A stretch of DNA of 41,030 nucleotides. It comes from Akkermansia muciniphila (GTDB lineage: Bacteria; Verrucomicrobiota; Verrucomicrobiia; Limisphaerales; SXQI01). The DNA is taken from the NCBI GenBank assembly GCA_945867235.1, contig CAMBHS010000008.1:1-41030 (forward strand), read 5' to 3'. Shown piece after piece: positions 25,614-34,728 of this stretch; position 1 is the stretch's first letter; the number at the start of each line of letters is the position of its first letter. The position numbers were made by a program, and so were the translations under genes. The notes under the pieces were generated by a model, which was not told the origin of the DNA, searched no databases, and saw nothing but the letters and a program-made list of their open reading frames with translations.

Positions 25614-26909
25614 TTATTGACTCATTGTTTTTGAAGGTGAAAGGTTGGAGCCATGCCGACAAAACTCTTCGAAACTACCTCCGAGCAATGCTTGCACATC
25701 GCGCTGAAGCTCGGCATTCGTGGGTTCCCAACCCACGGAACTGAGGGACCCATAGGCTTTTTGCAACACCTTTGTTACCACTTCACGGGTGTGATCCCAT
25801 TTGTAAATGAGTTGATCGACAACGCGGGCGTCCGAGTGCTGAGCCGTGAAACTGAACCCGAGTAACTCCAAACGCATGGAGGTCATTTCCTCGATAATAC
25901 TCGGGATATTCGTAAACCACCAGCACCCGAACACATGCAGGTTTCTAAATTTTCGCGCTAGGACGCAGAGTTCGTGTTGGTTTTCTCTCGATAGCACGGT
26001 GGCCAAAAACTTTTGTTGAGGATACTGAAGACACATATTTTCCAGCGACCTCAAATTACTCACGCCTAGTCCGTCTCCTGCCATTCCTAACTCCGAATTA
26101 ACCTGACGCCGAACCCCCAGCATCATTGCAAACGGCAGATCCGCTTCAACGCAATGGGGTAGGACGACGGAATCAAGAATTCGTTGAGTCATCGAATCGG
26201 ATGGATACTTGAATGTCGGAGGCAAGGAAACCATCGCGTAGCGAGGATCAATGCGGGTTGTCCAATCGCGTAAAAATCGCCTCAGCTCGGAAACCGTTTT
26301 CCTCGTCAGAGTCGGGTTGACCTCATAACCCATACTCCGGATTTGGCGCATGGTTGATTTATAATTAAGAATCAACGGATCTAATCGCAGCCCTGACTCG
26401 AAACGAGGGTGTCTTTTGAACGAATTTGCCCATACTCCCTGCTCATCCACATCGAAAGGAGAGTTAGTCATGCAAACCGTGGAAACATTCGCCAAGTCAA
26501 GGCAGTGATCTACAAAATCTTTTGGATGCCAGGCATTAAACCATTTACGAATCTTCGGAAGATCATTTTTTCTGACATCCAATCCTAGTCGATTCAATGT
26601 GGTGATGACGCCTCGTGCAGCCTCTGAAATGGGAGCATGCTCCAAAAACAAGGCACGCCAGATTAATTCAGCCTGCTGAGGTTTGGTAAGTGCCCAGAAA
26701 TTTTCATAGGACAATTCGAAATGACGAAACGATTCCGCCACCAAGTAGTGATACACCAGAAGATCATCAATACCCCAAAGGACAAGTTTCCCAAACGCAG
26801 GATCATAAAGGTGGGTATGAATGTCCCTAATGGGCGTTGAGGCCACTGCAGAAGCTATCCTCTGTGATAACTTTCCATCTGAAAATCGTTCACTCACGCG
26901 CTTGGTCAT
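25614..26909 (-). CDS. Glucuronate isomerase-like amidohydrolase (UxaC-related)
   Basis: This is a cytoplasmic TIM-barrel protein of 431 residues related to uronate isomerases. The metal-binding start reads RDIHTHLYDPAFGKLVLWGIDDLLVYHYL. Conserved blocks WFNAWHPKDF and VFGCWWFTNIPSIIEEM recall the late WWF motif of UxaC, and EVVTKVLQKAYG closes the barrel. It diverges from E. coli UxaC enough that the true substrate may differ. The ORF track begins at a TTG; the ATG 14 codons later (MTKRVSERF) is preferred. No uxuA/uxaB genes are nearby. It is tightly followed by aroE, with no clear pathway link. Confidence 0.75.
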   Translation of the reverse strand: MTKRVSERFSDGKLSQRIASAVASTPIRDIHTHLYDPAFGKLVLWGIDDLLVYHYLVAESFRHFELSYENFWALTKPQQAELIWRALFLEHAPISEAARGVITTLNRLGLDVRKNDLPKIRKWFNAWHPKDFVDHCLDLANVSTVCMTNSPFDVDEQGVWANSFKRHPRFESGLRLDPLILNYKSTMRQIRSMGYEVNPTLTRKTVSELRRFLRDWTTRIDPRYAMVSLPPTFKYPSDSMTQRILDSVVLPHCVEADLPFAMMLGVRRQVNSELGMAGDGLGVSNLRSLENMCLQYPQQKFLATVLSRENQHELCVLARKFRNLHVFGCWWFTNIPSIIEEMTSMRLELLGFSFTAQHSDARVVDQLIYKWDHTREVVTKVLQKAYGSLSSVGWEPTNAELQRDVQALLGGSFEEFCRHGSNLSPSKTMSQ

Positions 26910-26993
26910 TACTTTTTGGAAACCACAGTTAGCCACGCTCGAACCCTGCAACCAAGCAAATTATCACGATCATCCTTCGTTCTTTTCAGTCCG

Positions 26994-28068: not shown

Positions 28069-28085
28069 TTGGCATCTCCAATGCT
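28069..28085 (+). promoter_or_regulatory. Sigma54 (-24/-12) promoter for glnK-amtB copy 1
   Basis: TTGGCATCTCCAATGCT has the invariant GG and GC separated by ten bases, and matches TTGGCA of the -24 box well and TGC of the -12 box. The transcript would start near 28096, leaving a leader of about 165 bases before glnK. The leader holds a possible 17-codon frame (28141-28194), and I found no recognised riboswitch in it. This accounts for most of the 457-base gap upstream of glnK. Confidence 0.7.
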
Positions 28086-28194: not shown

Positions 28195-28599
<405 letters not shown>

Positions 28600-28625: not shown

Positions 28626-30122
28626 ATGAAAAACTTTTTTACACTTCTTAAATTCGCGTTGGCACTCGCTGTTTATCCACTGGCGACTCAAGCGCAGGCT
28701 CCAGCTCCAAATCCAACAGCCGAGGTGGCACCCGCCGTCGCTCCCACGAAAGCCGAACCCACCGATCCACAACGTATCTCAGACCTCGAAGCCTATGTGA
28801 ACAACACGGCTCGCCTTTCCGATGCTGTGGACTCCAAAGTTAGTTCTAAAATTTCCGGTGCAGGACCAGGCCACAATGGTTTCCAAATGGTTTGTGCGGC
28901 ATTGGTTCTTTTCATGACTCTCCCCGGTCTTTTCCTGTTCTATGGAGGGTTGGTGCGTAAGAAAAATATCCTGTCTGTTGTCGCCCAGTGCTTTGGTATT
29001 GCGGGTCTCGTTACCATTCTTTGGTTCTTGTATGGTTACAGCTTCGTATTCGGAGACGGTGCGGGTTCCATCCTAGGGAATCTTAAATTTGCCCTTTTTG
29101 ATGGGGTCGATTCGATGCCAAATACGAACTACAGCTATTGGATCTCTCACAACGTTTTTGCCATCTACCAGTTGATGTTCGCGATCATCACCCCTGCCCT
29201 GATCATCGGAGCGATTGCCGAACGCATGAAATTCTCAGCTATCATGGTGTTCGTTGCTATCTGGATGGTAGTGGTTTACTTCCCCTTGGCACACATGTTG
29301 TGGGGAATTAACGGCCTCATGAACGGCGTTTGGAATGCAGACGCAAAAATCAAAGCGATCGATTTCGCAGGCGGAACCGTGGTGCATATGTCTTCAGGTT
29401 GGTCGGCATTGATTCTGTGCCTTCTCCTCGGTAAGCGTCTGGGTTTCGGTAAGGAATCCATGCAACCCCACAGCATGACCATGTGCGCCATCGGCACCGG
29501 AATGCTATGGGTTGGTTGGTATGGTTTTAATGCCGGAAGTGCTGTGGCCGCGGACGGTATTGCTGCCAATGCGTTTACTACCACCACGATTGCTGCAGCC
29601 GTTGCTTCCTTTGTTTGGGCGATGGCGGAGTATATTCTTAGAGGGAAACCCAGCATTCTTGGTTTCTGCTCAGGTGCCGTCGCCGGGTTGGTTGTTGTGA
29701 CACCTGCTTGCGGATTCATCACTCCAGGGGGTTCGTTTATCATCGGAATCGTTGCCGGTATCATTCCCTTCCTCGCTTGTTGGAAGCTCAAGTCGATCTT
29801 CGGGTATGACGATGCCTTGGATACATTTGGTGTTCACGCAGTCGGTGGCACCCTAGGTGCATTGTTAACAGGCATGCTGGCTCGTAATTCAGCGAACGGC
29901 AACCTCGCCACGAATCTAAAAGCCTACGTCACAGATACGTTGTTCCAACCGCTATTGATGGAACAAATCAAAGCAATCGTTATTACCGTTGTTTTGAGCG
30001 TCGTCGGGACCCTTGTCATCGCTTTGATCACCAAAGCCGTCGTCGGTCTGCGAGTGGATGAAGAGGTTGAATCCGTCGGCCTCGATATCGCAGAACACGG
30101 AGAAGAAGGTTACCACGGTTAA
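28626..30122 (+). CDS. amtB: Ammonium transporter, copy 1 (AmtB)
   Basis: This is an inner-membrane ammonium channel of the Amt/Mep/Rh family, 498 residues. A signal peptide (ending ATQAQA) and an Ala/Pro-rich periplasmic segment of about 65 residues precede the eleven transmembrane helices, which begin at FQMVCAALVLFMTLPGL. Both pore histidines are present: the first in IDFAGGTVVHMSSG (His254, equal to E. coli His168), next to the conserved Asp, and the second in FGVHAVGGTLGALLTG. The C-terminal tail ends VGLDIAEHGEEGYHG, matching the GlnK-contacting tail. A hairpin terminator follows. It is the canonical copy of a tandem pair. Confidence 0.97.
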   Translation: MKNFFTLLKFALALAVYPLATQAQAPAPNPTAEVAPAVAPTKAEPTDPQRISDLEAYVNNTARLSDAVDSKVSSKISGAGPGHNGFQMVCAALVLFMTLPGLFLFYGGLVRKKNILSVVAQCFGIAGLVTILWFLYGYSFVFGDGAGSILGNLKFALFDGVDSMPNTNYSYWISHNVFAIYQLMFAIITPALIIGAIAERMKFSAIMVFVAIWMVVVYFPLAHMLWGINGLMNGVWNADAKIKAIDFAGGTVVHMSSGWSALILCLLLGKRLGFGKESMQPHSMTMCAIGTGMLWVGWYGFNAGSAVAADGIAANAFTTTTIAAAVASFVWAMAEYILRGKPSILGFCSGAVAGLVVVTPACGFITPGGSFIIGIVAGIIPFLACWKLKSIFGYDDALDTFGVHAVGGTLGALLTGMLARNSANGNLATNLKAYVTDTLFQPLLMEQIKAIVITVVLSVVGTLVIALITKAVVGLRVDEEVESVGLDIAEHGEEGYHG

Positions 30123-30294: not shown

Positions 30295-30750
<456 letters not shown>

Positions 30751-30774
30751 ATCACTTCTCTCTTGATGATCCTG

Positions 30775-32265
30775 ATGAAAAAAATAATTCTTTTCCTAAA
30801 TCTGGCGATTGCCTTGCTGCTGATTCCGGTGAGCAACGGTGTCGAAAGCCCGACGCCCGTTTCCACCGGTTCCGCCCTAGCGGCAAAGGCATTGAACAAT
30901 CCTACAGAACTTCAACGCCTTGAGGACGTCGAAGCCTACATCAATAATACCGCGAGAGGTGCTGACGCCCAAGGTTCTAAAATAGGAACAAAAGTAGTGG
31001 GTGCAGGCCCTGGGCATAATGCCTTCCAAATGGTATGTGCTGCTTTGGTGCTGTTCATGACCCTGCCGGGTCTCGCCATTTTTTACGGGGGACTCGTACG
31101 CAGAAAAAACGTGCTTTCGATCGTGGCCCAGTGCTTTGGCATCGCGGGATTGGTGACCATCATGTGGTTTGTTTATGGCTACAGCTTCGTTTTTGCTGAT
31201 GGAGCAGGTCCTGTTTTGGGAAACCTCAAATTCGCATTTTTTGAGGGAGTCGATTCCAATCCAAACCCCAACTACAGCTACTGGGTTTCACACAATGTAT
31301 TCTCCATGTATCAGTTAATGTTTGCCATCATTACTCCCGCTGTGTTGATGGGAGCCGTTGCCGAACGAATGAAGTTTTCCGCCGCGATGCTATTTGTAGC
31401 CTTTTGGATGGCCATTGTTTATTTCCCCATCACACACATGGTTTGGGGGATCAATGGTATGATGAATGGCGTTTGGAATCCAGATGCTAAAATAAAAGCG
31501 ATCGATTTTGCCGGTGGTTACGTCGTCGAAATGTCGTCCGGTTGGTCTGCCTTGGTTCTTTGTTTGATCCTTGGAAAACGGACGGGTTACGGAAAAGAAC
31601 TGATGCAACCTCATAGCATGACGTTATGTGCGATTGGTGCAGGGATGTTGTGGGTAGGATGGTATGGGTTTAATGCAGGCAGCGCGGTGGCAGCCGATGG
31701 GATCGCGGCCACAGCCTTTACCACAACTACCATCGCTGCCGCAGTGGCCTCATTCGTTTGGGCCATGGCAGAATATATTGTCCGCGGAAAACCCAGTATT
31801 CTAGGTTTCTGTTCTGGTGCCGTGGCTGGATTGGTCACCATTACACCCGCCTGCGGTTTTGTGACTCCAAGCGGATCGTTCATCATTGGAATATTGGCGG
31901 GAATCATCCCATTCCTCGCTTGTTGGAAATTGAAGGCTTTCTTCAATTATGATGATTCCCTCGATGCCTTCGGCGTTCACGCTGTTGGCGGAACGATGGG
32001 CGTCATACTAACCGGAATGCTGGCTCGGAATTCCGCGAACCCCAATCTTGCGACGAACCTGAAATCCTACGTCACAGACAGCCTGTTCCAACCTCTGGTA
32101 ATGGAGCAGGTCAAGGCGATGCTCATCACGATTGCATTGAATGTTGTTGGAACTTTGATCATTGGGCTCACGTTGAAGGCCACCCTAGGCATTCGCGCCG
32201 ATGAAGAAGTGGAGACAATTGGTTTGGACCTCGCTGAACACGGAGAAGAAGGTTATCACGTTTGA
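30775..32265 (+). CDS. Ammonium transporter, copy 2, with His-to-Glu substitution in the pore
   Basis: This is a paralogue of the preceding AmtB, about 496 residues with the same signal peptide plus N-terminal extension and eleven helices. The key difference is at the first pore histidine. Copy 1 reads DFAGGTVVHMSSG, whereas this copy reads DFAGGYVVEMSSG (codon GAA, residue 252). The second histidine (FGVHAVGGTMG) and the neighbouring Asp are kept. Glu at this position occurs naturally in fungal Mep1/Mep3-type transporters and is associated with altered transport properties. The C-terminal tail VETIGLDLAEHGEEGYHV is conserved. The start could also be the ATG three codons earlier; MKKIILFLNLAIALL aligns best with copy 1. 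Confidence 0.95.
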   Translation: MKKIILFLNLAIALLLIPVSNGVESPTPVSTGSALAAKALNNPTELQRLEDVEAYINNTARGADAQGSKIGTKVVGAGPGHNAFQMVCAALVLFMTLPGLAIFYGGLVRRKNVLSIVAQCFGIAGLVTIMWFVYGYSFVFADGAGPVLGNLKFAFFEGVDSNPNPNYSYWVSHNVFSMYQLMFAIITPAVLMGAVAERMKFSAAMLFVAFWMAIVYFPITHMVWGINGMMNGVWNPDAKIKAIDFAGGYVVEMSSGWSALVLCLILGKRTGYGKELMQPHSMTLCAIGAGMLWVGWYGFNAGSAVAADGIAATAFTTTTIAAAVASFVWAMAEYIVRGKPSILGFCSGAVAGLVTITPACGFVTPSGSFIIGILAGIIPFLACWKLKAFFNYDDSLDAFGVHAVGGTMGVILTGMLARNSANPNLATNLKSYVTDSLFQPLVMEQVKAMLITIALNVVGTLIIGLTLKATLGIRADEEVETIGLDLAEHGEEGYHV

Positions 32266-32430: not shown

Positions 32431-34728
32431 ATGCACCGCATCGCTCTAATACTTTTATTGGGTCTCCTCCCTGTCCACGCAGCACTTCCATTGGTATCGG
32501 GGGTTCCCGTCCAACCCCTTGCTGCTCAAGTTAGACGATTGCTTGAAGCTTTGGATTTTCTCGGGTCTCCTCTTGCACCCGCCGACCGGGCTGCTTTAAT
32601 GGCGTCGCTGAAGCAAAATAATGAAACTGCAGTTTCATCCGTGCAGTCGATTTTAGATAAATACTGCATACTCGGAATCAACGTGAATCCTGAGTCACGG
32701 GTCAAACTCGAGGCAGGCGATGCGAAACGTCAGTTGGTCACGGGGGGATGGCGTAATTTCCTTGTCAAAGTGCACAACGAGGCGGGTGTCACAGCGAATC
32801 TCATCGGGGTGAGTCCGAATGCAAAATCCTCCTTTGGAGGAGGATCGTTTAGCAATGCTTCAGATAAATATTTCAAAAAAACCGAGGGAAAAGGGTATGT
32901 CCCCGGCAGCGATCCTGAATTGTGGTTGGATCTCCAACTTTATGTGGGTCAACTAATGCCCAAAGAGCTTTCGGGCCTCGCCTTGGAGTATCGAATTCTC
33001 CAACTTTATAGCCGTGATTCGGGACAGCGTGAGGCTCGTTTACTCTTTAATGTTGGCCAAGGGACACAGGATATCGGGTTTCGCAATGAAACAAGTTTGC
33101 TTTTTAAAAGTGAACCTTCTCACAAGGTAACACTGGGGGTGATGGATGAGCATGGTGAAGCCGCTACGGCATCGTTTATTATCAAGGATTCTCGGGGTCA
33201 CATTTATCCATCGCAGTCCAAACGATTGGCTCCTGATTTTTCTTTCCACCCCCAGATCTATCGTCGTCACGGGGAAACGATCGAATTGCCCACAGGTGAA
33301 TACACGGTCGAATTTTCTCGCGGTCCTGAATCGATCGTTAAAAAACGAACGATCAAAGTGGACGCCTCCAACCGGCGTTTTGATTTCAAAGTTGAACGAT
33401 GGATTGATCCTGCGCAGTCAGGTTGGTGGTCAGGAGATCATCACATCCACGCGGCAGGTTGTGCCCACTACACAAACCCGACAGAAGGGGTACACGCACC
33501 GGATATGTTGCGCCATTGCCAAGGGGAGGACTTAAAGATCGGTGCCAATCTCACATGGGGTCCTTGCTTTGATTATCAAAAACAGTTTTTTAGCGGAGCA
33601 ATAGACAAGGTCTCCCAATACCCTTACCTCCTGCGTTACGATATCGAGGTTTCTGGATTCGGTTCTCATGAATCCGGTCACCTGTGCCTTCTGCGTTTGC
33701 GCAACCAAATGTATCCTGGAGGCGAGTCAAAAAACCATTGGCCAACTTTGGGACTAAACACTTTGCGTTGGGCCAAAGCTCAAGGTGCATTGGTAGGACC
33801 CGCGCATACCGGTTGGGGATTGGGTGCGGGGACTTCGGATCTGCCCAATTACGTAGTTCCACCTTTCGACGGCATCGGGGCCAATGAATACATCGTGGAT
33901 GTAACGCATCAGTTACCTGGACCAGACGGAAAACTTCAGCCTGCCGTCGATTTTCTTTCCACAGTGGACACTCCCTATCCATGGGAACTCAATATTTGGT
34001 ATCACACACTCAATGCAGGGTTTCGCACACGGATCAGTGGGGAAACGGATTTTCCCTGTATTTACGGTGAGAAAGTTGGGTTGGGACGATCTTATGTCAA
34101 ACTCGACGGAAAACTCGACTATGAGGATTGGTGCGAAGGCATTCGTGCGGGTCGCAATTACGTGGGCGATGGGCGCAGTCATTTGTTCGATTTCACCATA
34201 AATAATGTCGTCATGGGGGAAAATGGGAGCGAATTGAAAATGAATGGACCCGGCGAATTGGAGATCACAGCACGACTTGCGGCTCGTTTGGAAATTGAAC
34301 CGAACCTTGCGATTCAAAAGCGGTCCCCCGAAGAAAAACCCTACTGGGACATCGAACGTGCCCGCATCGGTTCGACAAGGGAAGTTCCTGTCGAGGTCAT
34401 TGTCAACGGTTACCCGGTGGCACAACTGAACCTACTCGCCGACGGAGTCATCCGAAAGCTGGGATTCAAAATACCTGTATCAAACAGCAGTTGGGTCGCC
34501 TTGCGGATTCTCGCTTCTTCCCACACAAATCCTATATTTGTAATCGTTGGCAATAAGCCAATTCGGGCTTCGAAACGGAGCGTGGAATGGTGCCTGAAAG
34601 GCGTGGATCGTTGCTGGTCACAAAAACAACGATTTATCCGAGCCAATGAGTTGGACACTGCAAAATCGGCCTACGAACACGCTCGGATTTCCTACAAGCA
34701 GATACTCGCCGAGACAGAGTTACCTTAA
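32431..34728 (+). CDS. Exported CehA/McbA-type PHP metallohydrolase
   Basis: This large periplasmic or secreted protein has 765 residues from the ATG that gives a signal peptide (MHRIALILLLGLLPVHA); the track starts 38 codons earlier without one. The N-terminal half looks beta-rich (GWRNFLVKVHNEAGV, then a region around EYTVEFSRGPESIVKK). The PHP metal-binding core begins WWSGDHHIHAAGCAHYTNP, followed by GHESGHL-like FGSHESGHLCLL and VGPAHTGWG, then SGETDFPCIYGEKVG. CehA/McbA members include carbaryl hydrolase, but most are of unknown substrate. The C-terminal region carries a beta domain (ELEITARLAARLEIEPN). A propeller protein gene follows 46 bases downstream. Confidence 0.82.
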   Translation: MHRIALILLLGLLPVHAALPLVSGVPVQPLAAQVRRLLEALDFLGSPLAPADRAALMASLKQNNETAVSSVQSILDKYCILGINVNPESRVKLEAGDAKRQLVTGGWRNFLVKVHNEAGVTANLIGVSPNAKSSFGGGSFSNASDKYFKKTEGKGYVPGSDPELWLDLQLYVGQLMPKELSGLALEYRILQLYSRDSGQREARLLFNVGQGTQDIGFRNETSLLFKSEPSHKVTLGVMDEHGEAATASFIIKDSRGHIYPSQSKRLAPDFSFHPQIYRRHGETIELPTGEYTVEFSRGPESIVKKRTIKVDASNRRFDFKVERWIDPAQSGWWSGDHHIHAAGCAHYTNPTEGVHAPDMLRHCQGEDLKIGANLTWGPCFDYQKQFFSGAIDKVSQYPYLLRYDIEVSGFGSHESGHLCLLRLRNQMYPGGESKNHWPTLGLNTLRWAKAQGALVGPAHTGWGLGAGTSDLPNYVVPPFDGIGANEYIVDVTHQLPGPDGKLQPAVDFLSTVDTPYPWELNIWYHTLNAGFRTRISGETDFPCIYGEKVGLGRSYVKLDGKLDYEDWCEGIRAGRNYVGDGRSHLFDFTINNVVMGENGSELKMNGPGELEITARLAARLEIEPNLAIQKRSPEEKPYWDIERARIGSTREVPVEVIVNGYPVAQLNLLADGVIRKLGFKIPVSNSSWVALRILASSHTNPIFVIVGNKPIRASKRSVEWCLKGVDRCWSQKQRFIRANELDTAKSAYEHARISYKQILAETELP

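Follow-up and report, generated by a model that had tools for sequence, protein, structure and literature searches.

A glutamate-type AmtB beside its histidine-type copy in a verrucomicrobial genome, and related cases in Verrucomicrobiia

RESULTS AND DISCUSSION

Two consecutive glnK-amtB units

The window (the whole stretch of DNA analyzed here, 41,030 nucleotides) is the entire contig 8 of a 2.7-Mb draft genome in 199 contigs, whose closest relatives in the genome collection, e.g., L003 and the Pedosphaera assembly L004, are draft Verrucomicrobia. We observe two consecutive units on the plus strand, glnK1-amtB1 followed by glnK2-amtB2 (Table 1), with the two amtB genes being the sole PF00909 genes found in this genome at 96% completeness. 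The tandem arrangement of a His-type and a Glu-type transporter given in the preliminary description is thereby confirmed. The two P-II regulators are identical at 96 of 112 residues, and the second unit has the layout of a glnK-amtB operon, with a P-II gene directly upstream of a transporter that ends in the GlnK-binding tail HGEEGYH. The amtB2 open reading frame (ORF) encodes 500 amino acids and starts either with TTG at 30763 or with ATG at 30775. An Rfam scan of the window gave no matches. The ORFs flanking the Amt units (25614-26951 and 32431-34728) have no Pfam match, and the latter encodes a His-rich stretch, GDHHIHAAGC.

Table 1. Features of the two glnK-amtB units (positions in the window; residue numbers follow E. 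coli AmtB)
Feature	Position	Strand	Evidence or remark
Weak sigma54-like site before unit 1, TGGCATCTCCAATGCT	28070..28085	+	2 mismatches
glnK1, P-II regulator	28261..28599	+	PF00543, E=2.8e-33
amtB1, ammonium transporter, His168 and His318	28626..30122	+	PF00909, E=1.6e-110, full length
amtB1 Thr165 codon	29376..29378	+	
amtB1 His168 codon, CAT	29385..29387	+	Sequence reading; numbering via E. coli AmtB alignment
amtB1 Thr314 codon	29823..29825	+	
Perfect sigma54 -24/-12 site before unit 2, TGGCACTTTTGTTGCT	30355..30370	+	0 mismatches
glnK2, P-II regulator	30412..30750	+	PF00543, E=4.2e-33
amtB2, ammonium transporter, Glu168 and His318	30763..32265	+	PF00909, E=1.1e-106, full length
amtB2 Tyr codon at Thr165 position, TAC	31519..31521	+	
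amtB2 Glu codon at His168 position, GAA	31528..31530	+	
amtB2 Ala codon at Thr314 position, GCC	31966..31968	+	
amtB2 His318 codon, CAC (second pore histidine, kept)	31978..31980	+	

Glutamate at the first twin-histidine position

In the frame of 30763-32265, positions 31498-31545 of amtB2 translate to AIDFAGGYVVEMSSGW, which contains Glu168, and the counterpart motif in amtB1 reads AIDFAGGTVVHMSSGW, with His at this position. The glutamate does lie in the His168 column, since phmmer (HMMER) aligns it with residue 168 of E. coli AmtB and the top PDB match of amtB2 is 2now, the AmtB chain itself with Glu at 168; amtB1 also matches AmtB chains in the PDB and favors those with His at 168. The preliminary description had further stated that the second pore histidine is kept in both copies and that the first is highly conserved, and we find the same, with His318 present in both and His168 being otherwise essentially invariant. 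The outer-site residues W148 and S219 and the Phe-gate residues F107 and F215 are likewise retained in amtB2.

PF00909 spans amtB2 fully (profile 1-399 of 399), and an AlphaFold model based on a 41-row alignment (pLDDT 85.6) superposes on E. coli AmtB chains with TM scores of 0.92 to 0.94; a single-sequence model (pLDDT 41.6) was discarded for this one. By domain and fold, amtB2 is a member of the Amt/Mep/Rh family. The twin-histidine pair reads Glu first and His second, and we base membership on domain and fold because fungal Mep1/3 members of the family tolerate Glu at the first position. With E. coli AmtB, amtB2 shares the fold, the conserved transport path, and the pairing with GlnK.

Distribution of Glu168

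The Glu168 case is rare and not unique, and other Verrucomicrobia carry it. Searches with a DNA motif pattern found Glu168 Amt genes in 17 of 384 Verrucomicrobiia genomes in a class-wide sample and in 5 of 388 genomes sampled across the phylum. All of these counts are lower bounds, because the pattern presumes the context FAGGxVVE, with slight latitude in the class-wide search and in one search of another group. The pattern recovered no Glu168 Amt from a further 592 genomes in four other groups, comprising 199 genomes from the phylum of L059 (a Pirellulaceae record), 199 from that of L073 (an Acidobacteria record), 148 from that of L025, and 46 from that of L068, with Pseudomonadota lying outside the sample. 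Pattern matches in these four groups, and about a dozen in Verrucomicrobiia, belonged to genes other than Amt and were discarded.

In most Glu loci with a long enough contig, a His-type Amt adjoins the Glu-type copy or lies near it, and one or two glnK genes are present. Two loci show disrupted genes. Genome G500 (lineage f17) has its Glu-type Amt (L197:4534-5680) split across four short reading frames, and the gene is therefore broken or misread in that assembly, and in an Opitutaceae genome with Glu and His copies a third Amt copy is broken by an in-frame TGA (L082:7790-9322).

Repeated origin of the Glu168 state

We built a tree of 95 proteins with columns 164-170 removed. The best tree requires five changes between His and Glu, and its well-supported branches force at least four. 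Not one of 200 bootstrap trees joined the Glu copies in a single group, and forcing a single Glu clade costs 181 log-likelihood units (AU test, P = 3.6e-5). Every Glu clade groups next to His copies from its own lineage, with support of 100/94 for amtB2 with the His copies of its genus, 100/99 for f17, 89/90 for the Opitutaceae group, and 91/67 for the f123 group, and with f121 placed inside a 100/100 group. A quicker tree that lacked neighboring His copies gave three Glu origins; with the neighbors included, the number rose to five, of which four have firm support. Judging from these trees, Glu168 arose at least four, probably five, separate times. The grouping of amtB2 with His copies from its own genus, in a tree that contains no Mep1/3 sequences, speaks against descent from the fungal Mep lineage, and amtB2 scores higher against AmtB than against Mep2; both observations indicate that it arose within bacterial Amt and is no member of the Mep1/3 group by descent.

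Since Glu and His copies adjoin, which favors gene conversion, the separate origins could be apparent only: one ancient Glu paralogue may have had its history outside the pore wiped out by conversion from the neighboring His copy, and this would fit the observation that the same columns differ in every Glu lineage. Each of the four protein quarters on its own, however, needs four to five His/Glu changes and puts amtB2 closest to the His copies of its genus, which leaves no sign of an old Glu gene inherited as a mosaic. Moreover, a sliding comparison of amtB1 and amtB2 shows identity distributed over the gene and no converted tract, and the coupled residues vary by lineage (Tyr, Phe, Met, or Leu at 165; Ala or Val at 314; Ser or Ala at 170). 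We consider gene conversion from this evidence to be unlikely. Repeated independent origin points to Glu168 as a convergent specialization and not a one-off oddity.

Selection on the glutamate copy

Between amtB1 and amtB2, 64% of third and 9% of second codon positions differ. This contrast takes the place of dN/dS for the pair, which is not computable with synonymous sites saturated; among the Glu copies of other lineages, dN/dS is 0.03 to 0.11. Because of the third-position bias between the copies and these values from other Glu lineages, amtB2 is judged to be maintained under purifying selection.

The branch leading to amtB2 has roughly three times the length of the amtB1 branch (0.24 versus 0.076), as expected for a duplicate that changed role. 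The same length could be taken as a sign of a redundant duplicate that is drifting and has lost the histidine without functional meaning, but this is very improbable, given the strong third-position bias, the dN/dS among the Glu copies of other lineages, and the return of the same residue with the same coupled columns in independent lineages. Although the genome is a draft in 199 contigs, the chance of a sequencing or assembly error at codon 31528-31530 is practically negligible: going from His (CAY) to Glu (GAR) requires two nucleotide changes, ten further near-invariant columns change alongside position 168, and independent genomes of other families have the same Glu state. The two nucleotide changes, the other altered near-invariant columns, and the third-position bias together make a base-call error implausible, and with purifying selection and two base changes needed, neither decay nor read error explains Glu168.

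Pore changes coupled to Glu168

Residue 314 is Thr in all 121 readable His copies (122 His copies in the set), whereas the 19 Glu copies have Val (18 copies) or Ala (the window copy). At residue 165, 118 of the 122 His copies have Thr and the other 4 have Ile; this residue is bulky in four of five Glu lineages, with Tyr in the window and Phe, Met, or Leu elsewhere; f123 is the only Glu lineage that keeps Thr165. Furthermore, a change from Leu114 to Val is common to the Glu copies of the window, f121, and f6. The Thr-to-Tyr change at 165 had been guessed to be compensatory, a guess that is strengthened by the replacement of Thr165 in four of five independent Glu lineages; the strongest coupled change, Thr314 to Ala or Val, had been overlooked. 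The four His-type copies with Ile165 (L067:773, L057:5846, L024:7870, and L068:5947) keep His168 and Thr314, and three of them are second copies in one divergent clade.

Across the 174 columns that are at least 95% conserved in His copies, columns 165, 271, 311, 314, and 326 are altered in four or more of the five Glu lineages, compared to an expectation of 0.02 under random placement, a test that treats columns as equally free to change. For that reason, we added an empirical control on 462 sets of five divergent His lineages (one row per lineage), none of which yielded more than a single column of this kind; in an earlier and less clean control with related rows, 1 of 126 quintets matched the column number of the Glu set. 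A sign test on four independent pairs gave the same direction in 4 of 4 for residue 314 and in about 3.5 of 4 for residue 165. Four pairs cannot reach significance, and the column overlap and the divergent-His control were therefore used.

The other Glu-type Amts of Verrucomicrobiia (L049, L055, L081, L082, L185-L196, L198, and L199) resemble amtB2 in having Glu168, His318, and mostly a bulky residue at 165, and often in lying near a His copy and glnK. They differ from it in their separate origins, in having Val314 where amtB2 has Ala, in other residues at the coupled columns, and in gene order. In published simulations, Val314 and residue 114 lie close to His318 within the hydrophobic pore (PMC3647058, PMC7447429). 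A plausible effect of having Val or Ala in place of Thr314, and a bulky residue in place of Thr165, is to readjust the pore around the carboxylate. We regard it as fairly probable that Verrucomicrobia repeatedly evolved a second mode of ammonium transport through this coupled switch (Glu for His168, Val or Ala for Thr314, and a bulky residue for Thr165) in a duplicated AmtB.

Predicted regulation of the two units

The perfect site before unit 2 is found in identical form ahead of the second glnK in sister genome L003, and rpoN is present in the genome analyzed here (E=1.3e-58), a combination of -24/-12 site and sigma factor gene that marks predicted sigma54-dependent nitrogen regulation. The weak site before unit 1, taken alone, is within chance for the window; its counterparts in L003, L004, and L119 lie 154 to 190 bases before glnK and have one mismatch. 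The sigma54 control proposed in the preliminary description thus holds as a prediction. In L003, which belongs to the same genus, the second glnK is followed by the first 174 codons of a second Amt (L003:3585-4523) that stops at the contig end, before residue 168; it is probably the counterpart of amtB2, because Ile30 and several other residues are common to both.

Unlike amtB2, the examined Glu copies of f17, f121, and f6 (L194, L195, L191, and L186-L188) have no sigma54-like site within 350 bases upstream, and the neighboring His copies in these lineages, where examinable, usually do have one. This suggests that the two copies are regulated differently there. Nitrogen-starvation control of the Glu copy is likely here, but it is not general, because no such site was found before the examined Glu copies of f121, f17, and f6.

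A proposed high-flux role for amtB2

We propose, with a rough probability of 0.55, that amtB2 is a duplicated, Glu-specialized working transporter of high flux and lower affinity that is paired with a scavenging His copy. A glnK-amtB unit would have been duplicated, yielding in amtB2 a working ammonium transporter of the Amt/Mep/Rh family, which then would have specialized by changing the first pore histidine to Glu, together with Thr314 to Ala, Thr165 to Tyr, and Leu114 to Val. The outer site and Phe gate, both unchanged, would recruit ammonium, the carboxylate at 168 would substitute for the histidine in the proton and water path, and the resulting pore would allow faster flux at lower affinity. 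amtB1 would scavenge at low ammonium, and GlnK protein would shut each copy when nitrogen is plentiful.

The kinetic part of this proposal draws on E. coli AmtB H168E and on yeast Mep1 and Mep3, by analogy with which amtB2 is most likely a high-flux, lower-affinity transporter. AmtB H168E gives a current of 22.28 nA versus 3.38 nA for the native protein, with a Km of 12.9 versus 0.8 mM, and shows no potassium current (PMC9040831). The preliminary description had linked Glu at this site to changes in both rate and selectivity; the effect on rate is borne out by these values, whereas for a lone acidic substitution at 168 altered selectivity is not supported. Relative to Mep2, yeast Mep1 and Mep3 are lower in affinity and higher in Vmax (PMC4501750), and a Mep2 that carries Glu at the first twin-His site clears ammonium more quickly than the native protein and has lost its signaling role (PMC7048316). 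In line with this, Mep1/3-type kinetics and electrogenic transport are predicted for amtB2.

H168E (PDB 2now) has the same Glu as amtB2 but is a laboratory change in a pore with Val314 and Thr165, whereas amtB2 is natural and has a verrucomicrobial background in which, unlike in E. coli AmtB, His copies have Thr314 and Glu copies do not. The kinetic analogy relies on E. coli and yeast transporters that have different residues at 314 and 165, so affinity could be restored by the coupled changes instead of staying low.

That the Glu copy has its own glnK, that sensor-type Amt proteins exist (PMC5764959), and that yeast signaling is decided by the residue at this position (PMC7048316) would agree with a copy that now acts mainly as a sensor or GlnK docking partner, or that assembles into mixed trimers with the His copy and so tunes its activity. 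Such a role is rather unlikely, as no extra signaling domain was found in amtB2, it retains the entire path for transport, and AmtB and Mep2 with a single Glu substitution still transport (PMC3647058, PMC9040831, PMC7048316). We keep the reading of amtB2 as a working transporter, and the two ammonium uptake modes suggested by the preliminary description would follow from its division of labor with amtB1.

Parallels with fungal transporters

As had been pointed out, Glu at the first twin-His site is the state of fungal Mep1/Mep3. These S. cerevisiae proteins resemble amtB2 in having His at the second position and in the retention of a His-type relative in the same genome, and they differ from it in being fungal, in their separate descent, and in being regulated by Npr1 and Amu1, not GlnK. 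Fungi usually retain one of each type, Mep1/3-like and Mep2-like (PMC4501750). The histidine pair is described as widely conserved except in fungal Mep1-like proteins (PMC7048316), and Glu at its first position as a fungal peculiarity of unclear purpose (PMC3647058), with the natural Glu state described from fungi only (PMC3647058, PMC7048316, PMC9040831). A literature search, to which most subscription papers were out of reach, found no bacterial Glu-type case.

The repeated appearance of bacterial Glu168 near a His copy, with the same neighboring changes, amounts to a natural experiment on the role of the twin-His site. It names residues 314, 165, and 114, which may make an acidic pore selective or efficient. 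If true, the coupled switch has a parallel in fungal Mep1/3 and identifies the pore residues that shift in concert once the twin-His site turns acidic. These observations suggest that some bacteria, like fungi, keep scavenging and high-flux ammonium transporters side by side.
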